Source: an uncultured Eubacteriales bacterium
Lineage (GTDB): Bacteria > Bacillota > Clostridia > Oscillospirales > Oscillospiraceae
Length of the DNA: 64,000 nucleotides
Direction: 5' to 3'
NCBI GenBank assembly: GCA_900316205.1
Contig: ONBX01000005.1
Coordinates: 1-64,000 of the forward strand
In this document: positions 51,680 to 58,122 of the stretch, piece by piece
Numbering within the stretch: the first letter of the stretch is position 1
Layout of the letters: every line of letters starts with the position of its first letter
Program-made: the position numbers and the translations under genes
The notes under the pieces: model-generated
The model's database searches: none
What the model saw: only the letters and a program-made list of their open reading frames with translations
Told to the model about the DNA's origin: nothing

Positions 51680-53662
51680 ATGCCGAACCGTCTTCAAAAC
51701 GAGCGCTCCCCCTATCTGCTGCAGCACGCGGACAATCCTGTGGATTGGTACCCCTGGGGAGAGGAGGCCTTCGAGAAGGCCCGCCGGGAGGGAAAGCCCG
51801 TCTTCCTCTCCATCGGCTACGCCACCTGCCATTGGTGCCATGTGATGGCCCGGGAGTCTTTTGAGAGTCCTGCGGTGGCGGAGATCCTGAACCGGAGCTT
51901 CGTGCCTGTGAAGGTGGACCGGGAGGAGCGGCCGGACGTGGACGCGGTGTATATGGAGGCCTGCGTGGCCCTGAACGGCAGCGGCGGCTGGCCCCTGACC
52001 CTGCTGCTCACCCCGGAAGGGGAGCCCTTCTTTGCCGGAACCTATCTGCCTCGGGAGAACCGGGGGCGGCAGCTTGGCCTGATCCCCCTGCTGCAGGCGG
52101 TGGAGGCCAAGTGGAAGCGGGACCGGCAGGGTTTGGAGAAGACCGCCGGAGAGCTCAGCGCGTTCCTTCGCCGGGAGCGGCCCCTGCAGCCGGGAGCGCT
52201 GGACGAAGAGCTGCCGAAGCGGGCCTATGAGCAGCTGAAAGGGATTTTCGACGAGGAGTACGGCGGCTTCGGCACGGCGCCCAAGTTCCCTGCACCCCAG
52301 AATCTGCTGTTCCTGCTGCGCTATGCCGCTCTGACCGGGGAAAAGGAAGCCCGGCGCATGGCGGAGAAGACCCTGCAGCAGATGGCCCGGGGCGGCATCT
52401 ATGACCAGATCGGCGGAGGCTTTGCCCGCTACTCCACAGACCGGGAGTGGCTGGCGCCTCACTTTGAAAAGACCCTCTATGACAACGCCCTGCTGGCCCT
52501 GTGCTATACCGAGGCCTGGCAGGAGGGGCGCTTTGCCCTGTACCGCCGCATCGCGGAGGAGACCCTGGATTACTGCCTGCGGGAGCTCAAAAGCCCCTGC
52601 GGCGGCTTTTGCAGCGGCCAGGACGCGGACAGTGACGGGGAAGAGGGCAAGTACTATCTGCTGACCCCGGAGCTGGTGAAGGCGGTGCTGGGCGAGGACG
52701 AGGGGCGGCACTTCGGCGAGTGCTACGACATCACCCCCGAGGGCAATTTCCAGGGCAAGAGCATCCCCAATCTGCTGCTGAACCAGCGCTGGAACCTGAT
52801 CCCCGAGGGCTATGGGGAATACCGGCAGCGCCTCCGGGAGGACCGGGCAAGGCGGGTGAGTCTGAAAAGAGACGATAAGCTCCTCACCGCCTGGAACGGC
52901 ATGCTGCTGATGGCCCTCTCCCGGGCGGCCAGGGCCTTCGGGCGGGAGGACTATGCCGAGGCTGCCCGTAAGCTCGTCTCCTTCCTCCTGGAAAAGGCGG
53001 GAGGATCGGTGCCGGAGAAGCTGCGGGCCGTCTGCTACGAGGCCGAGAGCGCCTTTCTGCCCGGACAGCTGGACGATTACGCCTTCACGGCCCTGGGCCT
53101 GCTGGAGGCCTACGCCCTGGATCGGGACAGCGATCTGCTCCTGGCGGCGGAGGCGCTGGCCCGGGAGATCCCGGCCCACTTCACCGCGCCAAACGGCGGC
53201 TTTTACCGCAGCGCCGACCGGGCGGAGACGCTTATCAAGCGGCCCATGGAGCGCTATGACGGGGCCATGCCCTCCGGAAACTCCGCAGCGTTGGTCCTCT
53301 TCGACCTGCTGCGGCGGCTCAGCGGCAAGGAGGAGTGGCGGGAGGCTGCCGAAAGGCAGGGGGCCTTCCTCTGCGCGGCGGTGAAGGAGGCGCCCATGGC
53401 GGGGGCCTACGGCCTGCTTGGCCTGATGGGGCAGCTCTATCCCACAAAGGAGCTGGTGGCGGCCCTGGCCGGAGAGGAGAGCCGGATGCTCTCCAGCATC
53501 GAGAGCCGCTTTGATCCCCAGATCGCGATCCTGGTGAAAAAGCCCGGGGACGAGAAGCTGGCCGCATTTGCGCCCTTTACCGAGCCCTACGGCCCCATCG
53601 ACGGTAAGAACGCCTTTTATCTCTGCGAAAACGGCGCCTGCTCCCTGCCTGTTAGGGAGTAG
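51680..53662 (+). CDS. DUF255/YyaL-like thioredoxin-fold protein
   Basis: 660 residues. The N-terminal thioredoxin-like domain holds CHWCHVM (Cys50 and Cys53) and the start [20 protein letters not shown] that marks the family. The remaining 450 residues form an alpha/alpha (six-hairpin) toroid typical of glycosidase-like proteins ([33 protein letters not shown]). Members are widely conserved from bacteria to mammals (SSP411/SPATA20), cytosolic; their reaction is not settled. ATG 51680 has AAAGGAGAATCGCC. Confidence 0.92.
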
Positions 53663-53943
53663 GATTTTTGAGTTTTGAGAAGGGGAGCGGGAGACTCCCG
53701 CTTCCTTCTGACCCGAAAAAGCGCAAAAAAAACAGCCCCCTGGCGGGAGCAGACAAAAGACGATCAGAGGACAATCATACGGAGCACAGATGAAAAAGCT
53801 TGAGCGAGCAGCGAGAACATTTTTCGTCAAGCGAGGCATTGGCCGCAGGGAATACTTTGTGTATTTCCAAGGACAATAACGAAGCATGACGGAAAAGGGG
53901 CCGCTGCGAATCAAGTCTTTTTCGTCAGGGCTTCGTATCAGAC
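53663..53943. repeat. Hairpins and MITE-related relic
   Basis: No gene seen. GGAGCGGGAG/CTCCCGCTTCC (53683-53705) is probably the terminator of the preceding gene. The region 53790-53880 contains AATACACAAAGTATTCCCTGCG on the minus strand and CTTGACGAAAAATG, which also occur at about 42953-43005 inside the 278-bp element, so it looks like a relic of that family. Confidence 0.65.
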
Positions 53944-54007
53944 AAAAAAAGAAGCAGCCCTTGACTGTAACACGTCCGATTTTTCACACAGTCAAGGGCT
54001 ACTTCTT
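53944..54007 (-). terminator. Strong intrinsic terminator of the candidate ncRNA
   Basis: Minus-strand stem AAGAAGTAGCCCTTGACTGT / ACAGTCAAGGGCTGCTTCTT (20 bp, one mismatch) followed by seven T residues (53944-53950). Confidence 0.92.
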
Positions 54008-54232
54008 CGTGTTCTTGGTATCTAGCATCCTGGTTACCTCTCTTTCTACAGATTTTTTGCTGCTGTGTCGTTCTCGGGACTCGCAATCGGCATCTAATTT
54101 GGGTTCTCTTCCCCGCCCTCAAAAGTGAGGCATGCTTTTGGCCGTCGTTCCCGCTGGCGCATCCCCAGCAGCTTCCTCAGGTTCCCGTTCCTCGGATCTT
54201 TCCTATATGTAACGGACCTTCATCCTTTGTGG
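53944..54232 (-). ncRNA. Candidate structured non-coding RNA (about 289 nt)
   Basis: A dedicated promoter and a very strong terminator delimit a 289-base minus-strand transcript with no credible reading frame. It is purine-rich and has paired segments: CCGTT/AACGG, CCTCA-CTTT-TGAGG, GGC...GCC, and a long-range GCTGCTG (about 54168) with CAGCAGC (about 54057). The internal loops (GGAAAGATCCGAGGAAC, GGGAACGACGG, GAGAGGTAACC) look like conserved RNA loops. It lacks the RNase P, tmRNA, SRP and riboswitch signatures I know. Known Clostridial candidate classes of similar size, such as the raiA motif, are possible, but I could not confirm this. It may be species-specific. Confidence 0.65.
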
Positions 54233-54236
54233 CTAT

Positions 54237-54265
54237 AATATAGCAGATCATACGATGAAATACAA
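54237..54265 (-). promoter_or_regulatory. Promoter of the candidate ncRNA
   Basis: Minus strand TTGTAT (54260-54265), 17 bp, TATATT (54237-54242); start expected at about 54231. Confidence 0.75.
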
Positions 54266-54350
54266 GTGGTATTCTATACAAAATAAACAAAACAAACTTG
54301 TTGAAAGAGCAGAATTTCGGCATGACTCCGTGAAAATATCCAAAAAGCCC

Positions 54351-54380
54351 TTGACAATTTACCGTATTACATAGTATGAT
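54351..54380 (+). promoter_or_regulatory. Orphan plus-strand promoter
   Basis: TTGACA (54351-54356), 18 bp, TATGAT (54375-54380). Only about 15 bases separate the expected start from the terminator that follows. Confidence 0.7.
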
Positions 54381-54400
54381 AAATACGTTGGGGCCTAAAA

Positions 54401-54430
54401 ACCGACCGCTTTTCAGCGGTCGGTTTTTTT
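54401..54430. terminator. Terminator right after the orphan promoter
   Basis: ACCGACCGCT-TTTC-AGCGGTCGGT stem (54401-54424) plus seven T residues. It works from the plus strand; on the minus strand it also ends the mutY transcript (A-run and T-run both present). Confidence 0.9.
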
Positions 54431-54454
54431 CATGTTCCGGAGGAAGGATTTCCC

Positions 54455-54555: not shown

Positions 54556-55593
54556 TTATTCGATGAGTGCCAGATAAGCTTTCAGTGCGGTGGGGATGGA
54601 GTAGCGGGCGCGGATCTCCTCGGCAGTCTCCCAGGTGAGGCCGGGGAGGGGCTTTCGGAGATCCAGAAGCCAGCCCTCCATGTGCCACTCCACATGGGTG
54701 AAGACGTGCTTGGCACTGCCGCAGGGGTCGATGCGCTCCGCCTGGGGGAAGCGGGCCCGGAGCTCCTCCTCCGTCACGGCGCCAAGCTCATTGGGAAACT
54801 CCCAAAGCCCGGCCAGAAGCCCCTTCTTTTCCCGCTGCCGGATGGCCCAGCGGTTCCCCCAGCGCAGAAGCAGCACGGTCCGTTCCTCCACCCGGCGGGG
54901 TCTGGGCGGGGCCTTTACGGGGAACTTTTCTTCCGTGCCGTTCTGGTGGGCGCGGCAGAGGCTCCGCCAGGGGCAAAGCTCGCACTTCGGCGAGCCGTTC
55001 GGGATGCAGATCGTCTCGCCCAGTTCCATGAGCCCCTCGGTGGTGAGGGCGGCGGCCTCCCCGCGGGGGTAGTGCTCCCGCAGCAGGGCGGTGACGCTCT
55101 TTTTCACGGCGGGGAAGAGAATGTCCCCGCTGTTTTCCAGCAGGCGGGAGAGCACCCGCAGCACGTTTCCGTCCACAGCGGGCTCCGGCTCTCCGCAGGC
55201 GATGGAGGCGATGGCCCCGGCGGTATAATCCCCGATGCCGGGGAGCGTGCGAAGCTGCGCCGCGGTATGGGGCAGCTCCCCGCCATAATCCCGCATCACG
55301 ATCTCCGCCGCTCGCTTCAGGTTGCGTGCCCGGCTGTAGTAGCCCAGCCCCTCCCAGAGCTTCAGGAGCCGGTCCTCCTCCACCGCGGCCAGGGCCGCCG
55401 CGTCCGGCAGCTCCGCCAGAAAGCGGTGGTAATAGGGGATTACCGTCTCTATCCGGGTCTGCTGCAGCATGATCTCCGAGATCCAGATACGGTAGGGCGT
55501 GGGCTCCTCCCGCCAGGGCAGCACCCGGCGGCTGAGAGCGTACCAGTCCGCGATCCGGGGCAGGGCCTGTTCAATGATTTCAGCGTCCGTCAT
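54556..55593 (-). CDS. mutY: A/G-specific adenine glycosylase
   Basis: 345 residues, full length. MutY removes adenine opposite 8-oxoguanine. Catalytic Glu40 (SEIMLQQ) and Asp141 (AVDGNVLR) flank the helix-hairpin-helix PGIGDYTAGAI. The 4Fe-4S cysteines appear as ICIPNGSPKCELCPWRSLC. A Nudix-like C-terminal domain, important for 8-oxoG recognition, follows from about 230. ATG 55593 has AAGGAGAGGTGCGCC; the longer frame enters a repeat array. Read-through is stopped by the terminator at 54401-54430. Confidence 0.95.
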   Translation of the reverse strand: MTDAEIIEQALPRIADWYALSRRVLPWREEPTPYRIWISEIMLQQTRIETVIPYYHRFLAELPDAAALAAVEEDRLLKLWEGLGYYSRARNLKRAAEIVMRDYGGELPHTAAQLRTLPGIGDYTAGAIASIACGEPEPAVDGNVLRVLSRLLENSGDILFPAVKKSVTALLREHYPRGEAAALTTEGLMELGETICIPNGSPKCELCPWRSLCRAHQNGTEEKFPVKAPPRPRRVEERTVLLLRWGNRWAIRQREKKGLLAGLWEFPNELGAVTEEELRARFPQAERIDPCGSAKHVFTHVEWHMEGWLLDLRKPLPGLTWETAEEIRARYSIPTALKAYLALIE

Positions 55594-55659
55594 GGCGCAC
55601 CTCTCCTTGCTTGCTGCTGCGATTGTAGCACAGGACGGGCAAATGCGCAAATGCTTTGG

Positions 55660-56246
55660 AGAGTATTCGCCTTCTCCCCGCAGGGAGGGAGGCATATGTG
55701 CTCCCCTGCAAGGGGAGCTGTCGCGGCGGCTCGCCGCTGTGACTGAGGGATTGTGCTCCCCTGCAAGGGGAGCTGTCACGGCGGCTCGCCGCCGAGACTG
55801 AGGGGTTTGACCCCTCCGTCACCGTCGCAAGCTCCGGTGACACCTCCCCTTTCAGGGGAGGACACACGGCAGGCAGATGATAGACACCCTACGCCGTTGG
55901 GACGAGCATCGCTCGTCCGCCAAGGCTCCTCCCTATCGGCCTTCGGCCACTGGCCACCTTGCCGCAATTGCCATTCCCGAGCCTGCTTCGCGATGGCCCG
56001 CCAACACCCCAGGGTGCCTTCTCTTGCCGCTGCGCGGCAATTCACCTTGTGGCGCGGCTGCGGAAATTGCGGCCTCGCTTTGTCTGCCACTGGCAGCGCG
56101 AGACCGCAATTCCCCCGGAGGGGGAAGGAAGAGCACCCGGCCCTTGCGGGACGGGGCGCCGCGTGATAGAATTTCAAAAAGGATGAAACCTTTTTACAGC
56201 TTTAAACGTTATAGGGACAGATCAAAGAAAACGGGAGGGAACGGAT
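55660..56246. repeat. R1/R2 repeat array
   Basis: Two R1 palindromes (TGCTCCCCTGCAAGGGGAGCTGT...GACTGAGG) at 55699-55748 and 55752-55805, followed by CCCTCCGTCACCGTCGCAAGC and a matching GACACCTCCCC half (55810-55861). A partial R2 (56042-56130) ends in CCCCGGAGGGGG. The following 100 bp hold the leader of the next gene. No CDS. Confidence 0.8.
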
Positions 56247-57539
56247 ATGGATAACAGCGAACAGGCTCTGGTGACCTGGCTGATCCTCTTCTTCCTTTTT
56301 GGGCTGCCGCTGCTGGTCACGCTGGGAGTGATCCTGGCAGGCTGGATCCAGAAGAGAAAAACAGGCGAGCGCAGCGACGGGCTTCGGGGGCTGGTCCTGC
56401 CGATCGGCCTGTGGGACGGCTTTGCCATCGGGCTTTTCGCTCTGCTGATGGGCATTTTTCAGCTCCATTGGTACATGAAGCTCTGCATCTTCCTGGCGGC
56501 GATCCTGCTGGAGGGGCTGCTGGTGGGCCTGATGGCCGGGTGGTTCACCTGGAAGCGCTTTCTCCTGTGGCTGCCCTGCGCCCTGGCTGTGGTCGGTACG
56601 CTGGTGGGTACGACCCTGTGGGAGAGACATCTGCGGGAGATCAGCATGCCGGAGAGCTTCAATTATCGGGACTATCTGCCCTTTCAGGAGGAGAGCCCCG
56701 TGGCGCGGCTGGAGGGGGAGAGCAGCCTGCGCTTTGCAGCGGACGAGAAGCTCCCCAAGATGGACGGGGCCACAGCTCTGTACCCGGTCTACGCCGCCTT
56801 TGCCCAGGCGACCTACCCGGAGGAGATGGAAAGATGGAACCGTTGGGATGTGGAGCAGCAGGTGTACTGCGGCACCACCTCTTCTGCCTACAGGAATATC
56901 GTAAAGGGAGGCTGCGACATTATCTTTGTGGCAGGGCCCAGCAGGGAGCAGGAGGAATACGCCAAAGAGCAGGGCGTGGAGCTGGTGTACACCCCCATCG
57001 GGCGGGAGGCCTTTGTGTTCTTTGTCAATCCCCAAAATCCCATCGAAGGGTTGACCCTGGAGCAGATCCGGGGCATCTATTCCGGCGGGATCACCGGATG
57101 GGCCGACCTGGGCGTTCCCGGCCTGGGGAAGATCCTGCCCTTCCAGCGCAGCGAGGGCAGCGGCAGCCAGACAGCCCTGGAGCGCTTCGTGATGGGGGAC
57201 ACGCCCCTGATGCCGGCGAAAACAGAGGAAATCATGACCGTGATGGATGGCATCGTGGAGCAGGTGTCCAGCTACAAAAACCACCCCAACGCCATCGGCT
57301 ACTCTTTCCGCTTCTACTGCACCGGCCTCATGCGGGGCTTTGACGTAAAGCTCCTGGAGATCGAGGGCGTGGCCCCCACGGTGGAGAACATCGAAAACGG
57401 CACTTACCCCCTGGCCTCGTATTTCTACGCCGTCACCCGCAGCGACGCGGACGAGAACACCCTGCGGCTTCTGGACTGGATCCTTTCGCCCCAGGGACAG
57501 GAGCTGGTGGAAAAAAGCGGGTATACGCCATTGACATAA
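56247..57539 (+). CDS. Substrate-binding (PstS-like) membrane protein
   Basis: 430 residues. Three or four N-terminal hydrophobic segments (about 9-30, 50-70, 75-98, 104-125) are followed by a periplasmic-binding-protein-type domain of about 290 residues. Segments such as DGATALYPVYAAFAQA, YCGTTSSAYRNIVKGGCDIIFVAG, FVFFVNPQNPIEGLTLEQIRGIY and RSEGSGSQTALERF are characteristic of phosphate-binding (PstS) proteins. It has no adjacent PstCAB transporter, so it may be a sensor-type protein or act elsewhere. ATG 56247 has AACGGGAGGGAACGGAT. Confidence 0.85.
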   Translation: MDNSEQALVTWLILFFLFGLPLLVTLGVILAGWIQKRKTGERSDGLRGLVLPIGLWDGFAIGLFALLMGIFQLHWYMKLCIFLAAILLEGLLVGLMAGWFTWKRFLLWLPCALAVVGTLVGTTLWERHLREISMPESFNYRDYLPFQEESPVARLEGESSLRFAADEKLPKMDGATALYPVYAAFAQATYPEEMERWNRWDVEQQVYCGTTSSAYRNIVKGGCDIIFVAGPSREQEEYAKEQGVELVYTPIGREAFVFFVNPQNPIEGLTLEQIRGIYSGGITGWADLGVPGLGKILPFQRSEGSGSQTALERFVMGDTPLMPAKTEEIMTVMDGIVEQVSSYKNHPNAIGYSFRFYCTGLMRGFDVKLLEIEGVAPTVENIENGTYPLASYFYAVTRSDADENTLRLLDWILSPQGQELVEKSGYTPLT

Positions 57540-57550
57540 GAAGAAGAAAA

Positions 57551-57593
57551 GGATCGGGCTTCCGCTGTACAGGACGGCGGAAGCCCGATTTTT
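57551..57593 (+). terminator. Terminator of the PstS-like gene
   Basis: ATCGGGCTTCCGC / GCGGAAGCCCGAT stem with an 11-base loop and TTTT end. Confidence 0.88.
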
Positions 57594-58122
57594 GCGTTGA
57601 GGGGCGGGCGATTCGTGAATCGCCCCTACGGGGGACAGGGGAGACGCCCTCCGTCATCCCTTAGAGAGGGAGGCATATGGGCTCCCCTGCAAGGGGAGCT
57701 GTCGCGGCGGCCAGCCGCTGTGACTGAGGGGTTTGCCCCCTCCGTTAATGACTCCCTCCGTCACGGAGCTTGTGTGAGACGCTCCGTGACACCTCCCTCA
57801 AAGAGGGAGGCATATGGGCTCCCCTGCAAGGGGAGCTGTCGCGGCGGCTTGCCGCCGGGACTGAGGAATTGTGCTCCCCTGCAAGGGGAGCTGTCGCGGC
57901 GGCTTGCCGCCGGGACTGAGGGGTCTGACCCCTCCGTCACCGTCGCAGGCTCCGGCGACACCTTCACCTTGCGGTGCCCGAAAAACGCTGCGGGCTTGCG
58001 CTTGTCCCTTGCGTTTTTCGACCGCTGCGGAAAAAGCGCCATCGCTTCTTCTGCCACTGGCAGCGCGATGGCGCTTTTCCCCCTTTCAGGGGAGGACACG
58101 CGAGAAGCGGTGAAACGCGGCC
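57594..58122. repeat. R1/R2 repeat array
   Basis: R1 copies at 57679-57729, 57816-57866 and 57872-57921, each GCTCCCCTGCAAGGGGAGCT-type with CGGCGG...CCGCCG. Then a full R2 hairpin (57963-58092) with the arm GCGCCATCGCTTC and GCGATGGCGC. Between copies lies an inverted repeat ACGGAGC/GCTCCGT (about 57762-57787). No gene. Confidence 0.82.

Follow-up and report, generated by a model that had tools for sequence, protein, structure and literature searches.

Sequence comparison among related genomes indicates with high confidence that a segment of the window (the whole 64,000-nt stretch of DNA that was analysed) carries a member of a new, functional RNA family. The predicted architecture comprises a promoter, a Shine-Dalgarno (SD) sequence with a miniature ORF by the 5′ end, a structured core where present, and a second SD and micro-ORF that reaches into the terminator. 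The gene is standalone, without fixed neighbour genes, and the family recurs in uncultured gut and rumen bacteria. The explanation that we favour overall, although only tentatively, is that of a standalone RNA gene whose terminal micro-ORFs park ribosomes and whose stability or activity is tied to translation. As read from the window, all features of the RNA gene itself lie on the minus strand, and a second transcription unit diverges from it on the plus strand:

54351–54380, plus strand: divergent promoter, TTGACA (54351–54356) and TATGAT (54375–54380) with a spacing of 18, from the sequence
54387–54431, plus strand: predicted divergent tiny RNA, consisting of GTTGGGG, a hairpin, and a T run (fold −21.8 kcal/mol)
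54266–54317, minus strand: operator-like block upstream of the −35 box, from the conservation of each position across 124 copies aligned at this box
54260–54265, minus strand: −35 box TTGTAT, from the sequence
54237–54242, minus strand: −10 box TATATT, extended (TGC before it), 17 bp from the −35 box, from the sequence
54203–54223, minus strand: possible remnant or altered 5′ micro-ORF, ATGAAGGTCCGTTACATATAG (MKVRYI-stop), a weak candidate found by eye against loci L004 and L006
54161–54172, minus strand: 5′ arms of P1 (GCTGCTG, 54172–54166) and P2 (GGGAT, 54165–54161), from the covariance alignment
54088–54144, minus strand: inner domain, with P3 (CGGC, 54144–54141, with GCCG, 54091–54088), P4 (54130–54117), and P5 (54114–54101)
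54059–54080, minus strand: 3′ arms of P2 (GTCCC, 54080–54076) and P1 (CAGCAGC, 54065–54059), from the covariance alignment
54036–54046, minus strand: SD of the 3′ micro-ORF, GAAAGAGAGGT, from the sequence and homologue patterns
53999–54028, minus strand: 3′ micro-ORF of 9 codons, ATGCTAGATACCAAGAACACGAAGAAGTAG (MLDTKNTKK-stop), from the sequence and conservation
53942–54009, minus strand: intrinsic terminator (22 bp, −36.4 kcal/mol), hairpin 54009–53947 followed by a T run

An earlier reading of this DNA, made from the letters alone (the sequence-only reading), had proposed a promoter-to-terminator transcript between two genes, and the sequence elements of this outline were confirmed. The TTGTAT-17-TATATT promoter is present at 54265–54237 with an extended −10 box, and the terminator stem, given as 20 bp, measured 22 bp. 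Transcription would start near 54230 on the minus strand. In the aligned copies, the main promoter has the consensus tgTGcTATatTATAg.CA. Of 165 copies, 136 matched a promoter-plus-leader HMM (E < 0.1), with the 40 training copies counted in. The 5′ neighbour of the segment by coordinate is a DUF255/thioredoxin-like gene (51680–53662, plus strand), and on the other flank lies a gene of the MutY type (HhH-GPD and NUDIX_4 domains; 54556–55779, minus strand). The window also contains repeats of 83–176 nt at 55670–57970 (CTCCCCTGCAAGGGGAGCTGTC..., five copies of one family), which probably account for several long spurious ORFs in that region. Of the composition previously described, the purine richness was borne out (purine fraction 0.616), whereas the GC richness was not: the GC content of the segment is 0.498 vs 0.617 for the whole window.

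Scanning the segment against Rfam 15 returned no family at the gathering score, in line with the earlier failure to recognize a known RNA, and the same scan of 18 homologous loci returned only tRNAs. A relaxed scan of the segment (E up to 10) gave 17 matches, all far below gathering and mostly hairpin look-alikes. The two best of these were rejected: mir-2363 at the terminator (E 0.00045, 32.5 of 90 gathering bits) and Hrs13 at the divergent hairpin (E 0.0013, 24.2 of 52 gathering bits). The raiA motif RNA, described as a standalone structured RNA of Bacillota (PMC11706538), had been one of two guesses for this segment. Only the length and stand-alone nature of the present RNA favour membership in a known structured family of this kind, and it is likewise standalone, structured, and from Bacillota; however, raising the E limit to 10 still gave no match to the raiA covariance model, and micro-ORFs are central to the present RNA. 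We therefore give next to no credence to a known family. The other guess, a new structured RNA class, is supported by the Rfam results and by the homologues and compensatory changes described below.

A DNA search found homologues in 33 of 60 genomes, with the window's own genome counted, and all of them belonged to its genus (33 of 37 members; 0 of the 23 other genomes of the order). The part best kept between most relatives was the last 100 nt rather than the middle of the RNA, in the order GAAAGAGAGGT, spacer, ATG-YTA-GAT-AYY-AAG..., stop, and terminator. A pattern for this 3′ module, which fixes codons 1–5 nearly completely and so misses variants in the genome, named-contig, and viral scans, occurred in 47 of 400 family genomes and 21 of 106 genera (reversed control, 0), and in 18 of 295 order genomes from seven families (f1, f3, f15, f16, f18, f19, and f20). 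Among 391 genomes sampled across the class, it occurred in the window's own genome only (0 of 373 from other orders). At least 118 stretches in named contigs matched; among the 80 titles listed, most were Oscillospiraceae, Ruminococcaceae, or Clostridia/Clostridiales, many came from ruminant samples, and Faecousia, Onthomonas, and Scatomorpha occurred. The named relatives are mostly Oscillospiraceae metagenome-assembled genomes (MAGs). The strict pattern had no match in viral contigs, and a 501-nt query had none in phage and plasmid collections. Literature searches turned up no account of the RNA or the peptide, and no paper matched any of four exact nonapeptides; an unnamed entry is possible among the 3161 candidate RNAs of Fremin and Bhatt 2021 (PMC8040213).

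The sequence-only reading had stated that the transcript contains no reading frame, which is wrong: a conserved 9-codon ORF with its own SD runs from 54028 to 53999 and overlaps the terminator. The final codons of this ORF and its stop lie in the 5′ arm of the terminator, and in relatives the stop directly abuts the CCC/GCC of the terminator stem. Since the first pattern had imposed codons 1–5, the search was repeated without codon constraint (SD, ATG, 18–30 bases, and CCCTKR, with any frame and 6–10 codons allowed); the strong 3′ SD is itself imposed by the search patterns. This codon-neutral search found 72 places in 57 of the 400 family genomes (reversed control, 1) and was without a match in the other 343, a patchy distribution within the window's order. 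In 66 of the 72 places, an in-frame stop stood exactly before the CCC/GCC of the stem, with a length of 9 codons in 51 and 8 codons in 15; the other six lacked such a stop and by eye resembled ordinary gene starts. With the codons imposed, the length was 7–9 codons in 155 of 158 copies. The N-termini of the 66 were MLD (61), MEP (4), and MI (1). In the 61 MLD copies, Leu-2 was encoded by TTA (57), CTA (2), TTG (1), or CTT (1), Asp-3 by GAT throughout, and Lys-5 by AAG (57) or AAA (4), with Thr, Ile, or Asn at codon 4. In other words, every change at codons 2 and 5 was synonymous. The changes of length by whole codons and these synonymous changes favour translation, while the strong codon preference indicates that the RNA letters matter too. 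At one locus (L050, approximately locus position 1521), TGG replaces the usual stop and lengthens the frame; this is possibly a decayed copy. Furthermore, the same architecture with another 3′ micropeptide (MEPTFEAE-stop type; MIEPIHFVK-stop once) was seen at L183, L185, L186, L187, and G108:C119:1802–1854, suggesting that the peptide module is exchangeable.

These features bear directly on a rival explanation, in which the locus is a tiny mRNA whose functional product is the nonapeptide MLD(T/I/N)K-x-x-x-K, alone or together with a tripeptide MYR from the 5′ end, and the core merely tunes translation. Frame, length, and stop are kept as a peptide would require, one locus (L020) by eye uses CTC, ACG, and AAA and still encodes MLDTK, and copies without a core retain both ORFs. 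However, the codons at positions 2, 3, and 5 are nearly fixed, beyond the need of a peptide alone, another peptide sometimes starts at the same place, and the core covaries strongly where it is present. A functional nonapeptide is possible, although we would not bet on it, and ranks close behind ribosome parking.

The stop codon within the 5′ arm of the terminator also points to a leader-peptide attenuator, a class to which pyrBI belongs and in which a small ORF overlaps the terminator, as the 3′ micro-ORF does here. Translation of this ORF would then block the terminator and let transcription continue into a downstream gene, since a ribosome terminating within the 5′ arm should open the hairpin. 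However, the nearest downstream gene (from mechanical ORFs) was on the same strand in 75 cases and on the opposite strand in 72, a search for a conserved gene neighbourhood across loci found no neighbour family in more than six, and the next gene in the window is convergent. Lacking a consistent same-strand downstream gene to regulate, this reading fails a defining test, and we consider it highly improbable. In two close relatives (L002 and L109), the divergent side, read by eye, leads into the end of a MutY-like gene just as it does in the window, so that over short distances the locus seems to pass on by vertical inheritance. Several copies occur in some genomes, with up to six in the codon-neutral search (G251); these six lie on two contigs of one genome (L042 and G251:C56, G251:C76), approximately 0.4–1.4 kb apart on each, and the L042 copies that were read each have their own promoter.

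At the other end of the RNA, 94 of 128 aligned copies had an ATG after an SD-like sequence past the promoter, and in 72 of these 94 a stop followed within four codons, compared with approximately 17% expected by simple codon arithmetic; this frequency may be overstated because the 40 training copies of the 5′-end profile had been selected for their miniature ORF, and no 5′ ORF of ≤4 codons was detected in 56 of the 128. The commonest forms were MYR-stop (17), MYK-stop (7), MI-stop (6), MYI-stop (5), and MY-stop (5), and the commonest sequence was AUG-UAC-AGG-UAA. When the 5′ module alone was searched strictly, it was found at 7 places in 7 of 260 family genomes, the window's own not among them, and the 3′ module lay downstream in all 7. 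In the window this ORF is altered, and by eye the SD of the candidate lies too close to the start; relatives have ATG-TAC-ATA-TAA/TAG (MYI-stop) at this site with a better-spaced SD. The shortest copies, L215 and L216, have 14 nt from the first stop to the second SD, and 33 nt separate the two ORFs in L215, so that the smallest form consists of promoter, SD, MYR-stop, SD, MLD...-stop, and terminator. The core is absent in these two copies, and also in L046 and L199. The shortest copies, which keep both ORFs without a core, fit a function of the peptide or of the ribosome sites better than a function of the core.

Where the core is present, it covaries strongly. The pairing of GCTGCTG with CAGCAGC proposed from the sequence alone was recovered as P1 (54172–54166 with 54065–54059), a helix that covaries among homologues. 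Between the 3′ arms of P2 and P1 lies a bulge of 10 nt with GACA, and the P4 hairpin, CCTCACTTTTGAGG in the window, is of the type CUCR-CUUA-YGAG. Eight close sequences served to build a covariance model, which gave 81 matches in the 78 loci searched, 36 of these matches longer than 115 nt; covariation was counted on all 81 rows (45 short) and again on the 36 long rows and then on the 28 long non-seed rows. In an alignment that was fitted to the proposed structure and hence biased in its favour, among copies related by descent and against shuffles preserving base content only, 88.2% of cells in all rows were paired vs 62.1% when shuffled, 244 cells had double-sided changes vs 68.1 shuffled and at most 53 slid, and the covariation score was 0.159 vs 0.048 shuffled and at most 0.028 slid. 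Double-sided changes occurred in 7 of 7 pairs of P1 and 4 of 5 of P2; the overall number of pairs with such changes (24 of 26) was near the shuffled mean of 19.5 and is less telling. P3, P4, and P5 were paired in 88.1%, 93.0%, and 75.2% of cells, respectively, P5 being the weakest. The 28 full-length non-seed rows gave similar values, with 85.3% of cells paired vs 59.6% shuffled, 162 double-change cells vs 49.3 shuffled and at most 43 slid, and pairing of 89.1% (P1), 77.5% (P2), 88.3% (P3), 91.3% (P4), and 72.1% (P5). The compensatory base changes of a structured standalone RNA were thus found. The evidence for structure is this covariation, because the fold energy stood out only when the terminator was included (z = −3.68 for the complete RNA); without the terminator and 3′ ORF, z was −0.76, and 40 of 200 shuffles were as good. 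One strict hairpin form occurred in 27 of 116 copies, with 1.9 expected from base shuffles. The core model matched 27 of 61 genus genomes, some via the SD tail alone, and had no match in the other 34.

Upstream of the −35 box, approximately 50 bp are conserved in the 124 aligned copies, with TTTT-CACAA and TTTTGTACAA elements 24 nt apart. The family consensus of this operator-like block is roughly AATTTCTG..TTTT-CACAA-N14-TTTTGTACAATATTCC, and the window form is AAATTCTGCTCTTTCAACAAGTTTGTTTTGTTTATTTTGTATAGAATACCAC. The block sits between two divergent promoters, the second of which, together with its hairpin RNA (plus strand, 54351–54431), had been missed in the sequence-only reading. A divergent TTGAC..TANNNT promoter was present in 102 of 124 copies vs 3.0% in base-shuffled sequence. 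Of the 100 divergent loci with 300 nt upstream, 71 had a GTTGNG start after the promoter and 65 had a terminator hairpin no more than 75 nt away, where base shuffles gave 0.92 and 0.6, respectively. The hairpin begins a median of 11 nt past the −10 box, and the predicted RNA is approximately 40 nt long. The window's divergent hairpin (54401–54431) is flanked by T runs on either side, and it may double as the terminator of the convergent MutY-type gene.

A divergent small RNA beside a longer RNA with small ORFs, in several copies in some genomes, is the topology of the type I toxin-antitoxin loci TisB/IstR-1 and ZorO/OrzO (PMC3919570), and by sequence the promoter and terminator frequencies above predict such a small RNA, which would here act as the antisense antitoxin of the micro-ORF mRNA. 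Divergent type I loci are described as having approximately 18–21 nt of complementarity (PMC3919570). In contrast, among the 75 of 102 divergent loci with the required G[TA][TA]GNG start, the mean rank of the cognate partner was 0.4999, and the longest Watson-Crick run between tiny and main RNA had a median of 6 and a maximum of 8 (non-cognates, 6 and 9). The 9-nt seed paired about as well with three regions as shuffled seeds did (−6.55/−6.52, −4.6/−4.88, and −9.34/−9.02 kcal/mol). Moreover, the peptides, as read from the sequences, are short (2–9 aa), charged, and not hydrophobic, and the divergent RNA comprises hardly anything besides a terminator hairpin. With neither antisense complementarity nor a hydrophobic peptide, the toxin-antitoxin reading fails a defining test and is very improbable.

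Ribosome parking can be compared with several known systems. SgrS and SR1 are dual-function sRNAs that combine a structured part with a small ORF, as the RNA here does, but its ORFs are much shorter and terminal, one at each end, and the 3′ one extends into the terminator. STAB-SD elements are strong SDs by the RNA 5′ end that form part of an mRNA leader; the RNA here likewise has a strong SD adjoining its 5′ end, but a start-stop ORF follows it and no gene. Phage lambda bar is a minigene, and minigenes share with the 5′ ORF here a start-stop ORF of 2–3 codons and an SD near the 5′ end; by analogy, protection of the RNA in cis may apply to both, although the ORF here is one of two terminal ORFs on a standalone RNA without a downstream protein gene. 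Translation of minigenes, such as the two-codon ORF mg2 of axe-txe, has been linked to altered RNA fate or protection (PMC8708949), as have SD-like sequences near 5′ ends, where the STAB-SD elements of Gram-positive mRNAs are cited (PMC7509114). On the basis of the layout and of these published effects, we propose ribosome parking as a working mechanism, a possibility that we put clearly below even. Ribosomes would load at both ends of the RNA and finish after a few codons, leaving the core untranslated. The 5′ ribosome site would shield the RNA from nucleases, and a ribosome on the 3′ ORF would cover the base of the terminator hairpin; how long the RNA lasts and how it folds would therefore depend on, or report, the availability of ribosomes. 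The core, where present, may act in trans, and a regulator bound between the two divergent promoters may set expression. A more elaborate form, which we hold to be rather doubtful, is a new class of translation-sensing RNA that is translated only in two start-stop micro-ORFs at its ends, with ribosomes as caps, the 3′ one controlling the terminator. The status of ribosomes or aminoacyl-tRNA would set its fate, and it would be made together with the divergent hairpin-only RNA under one operator.

The RNA has no Rfam entry, and ordinary annotation would not be expected to include ORFs as short as these. To our knowledge, the micro-ORFs, if translated, are among the shortest conserved ORFs, and they would offer a clean system for the effect of translating 2–9 codons on an RNA. 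A functional nonapeptide, if that reading is true, could serve, for instance, in signalling or regulation inside the cell. A second conserved element is the divergent RNA, hairpin-only and with a GUUGNG start. The RNA family itself may represent a new kind of ribosome-linked regulator.
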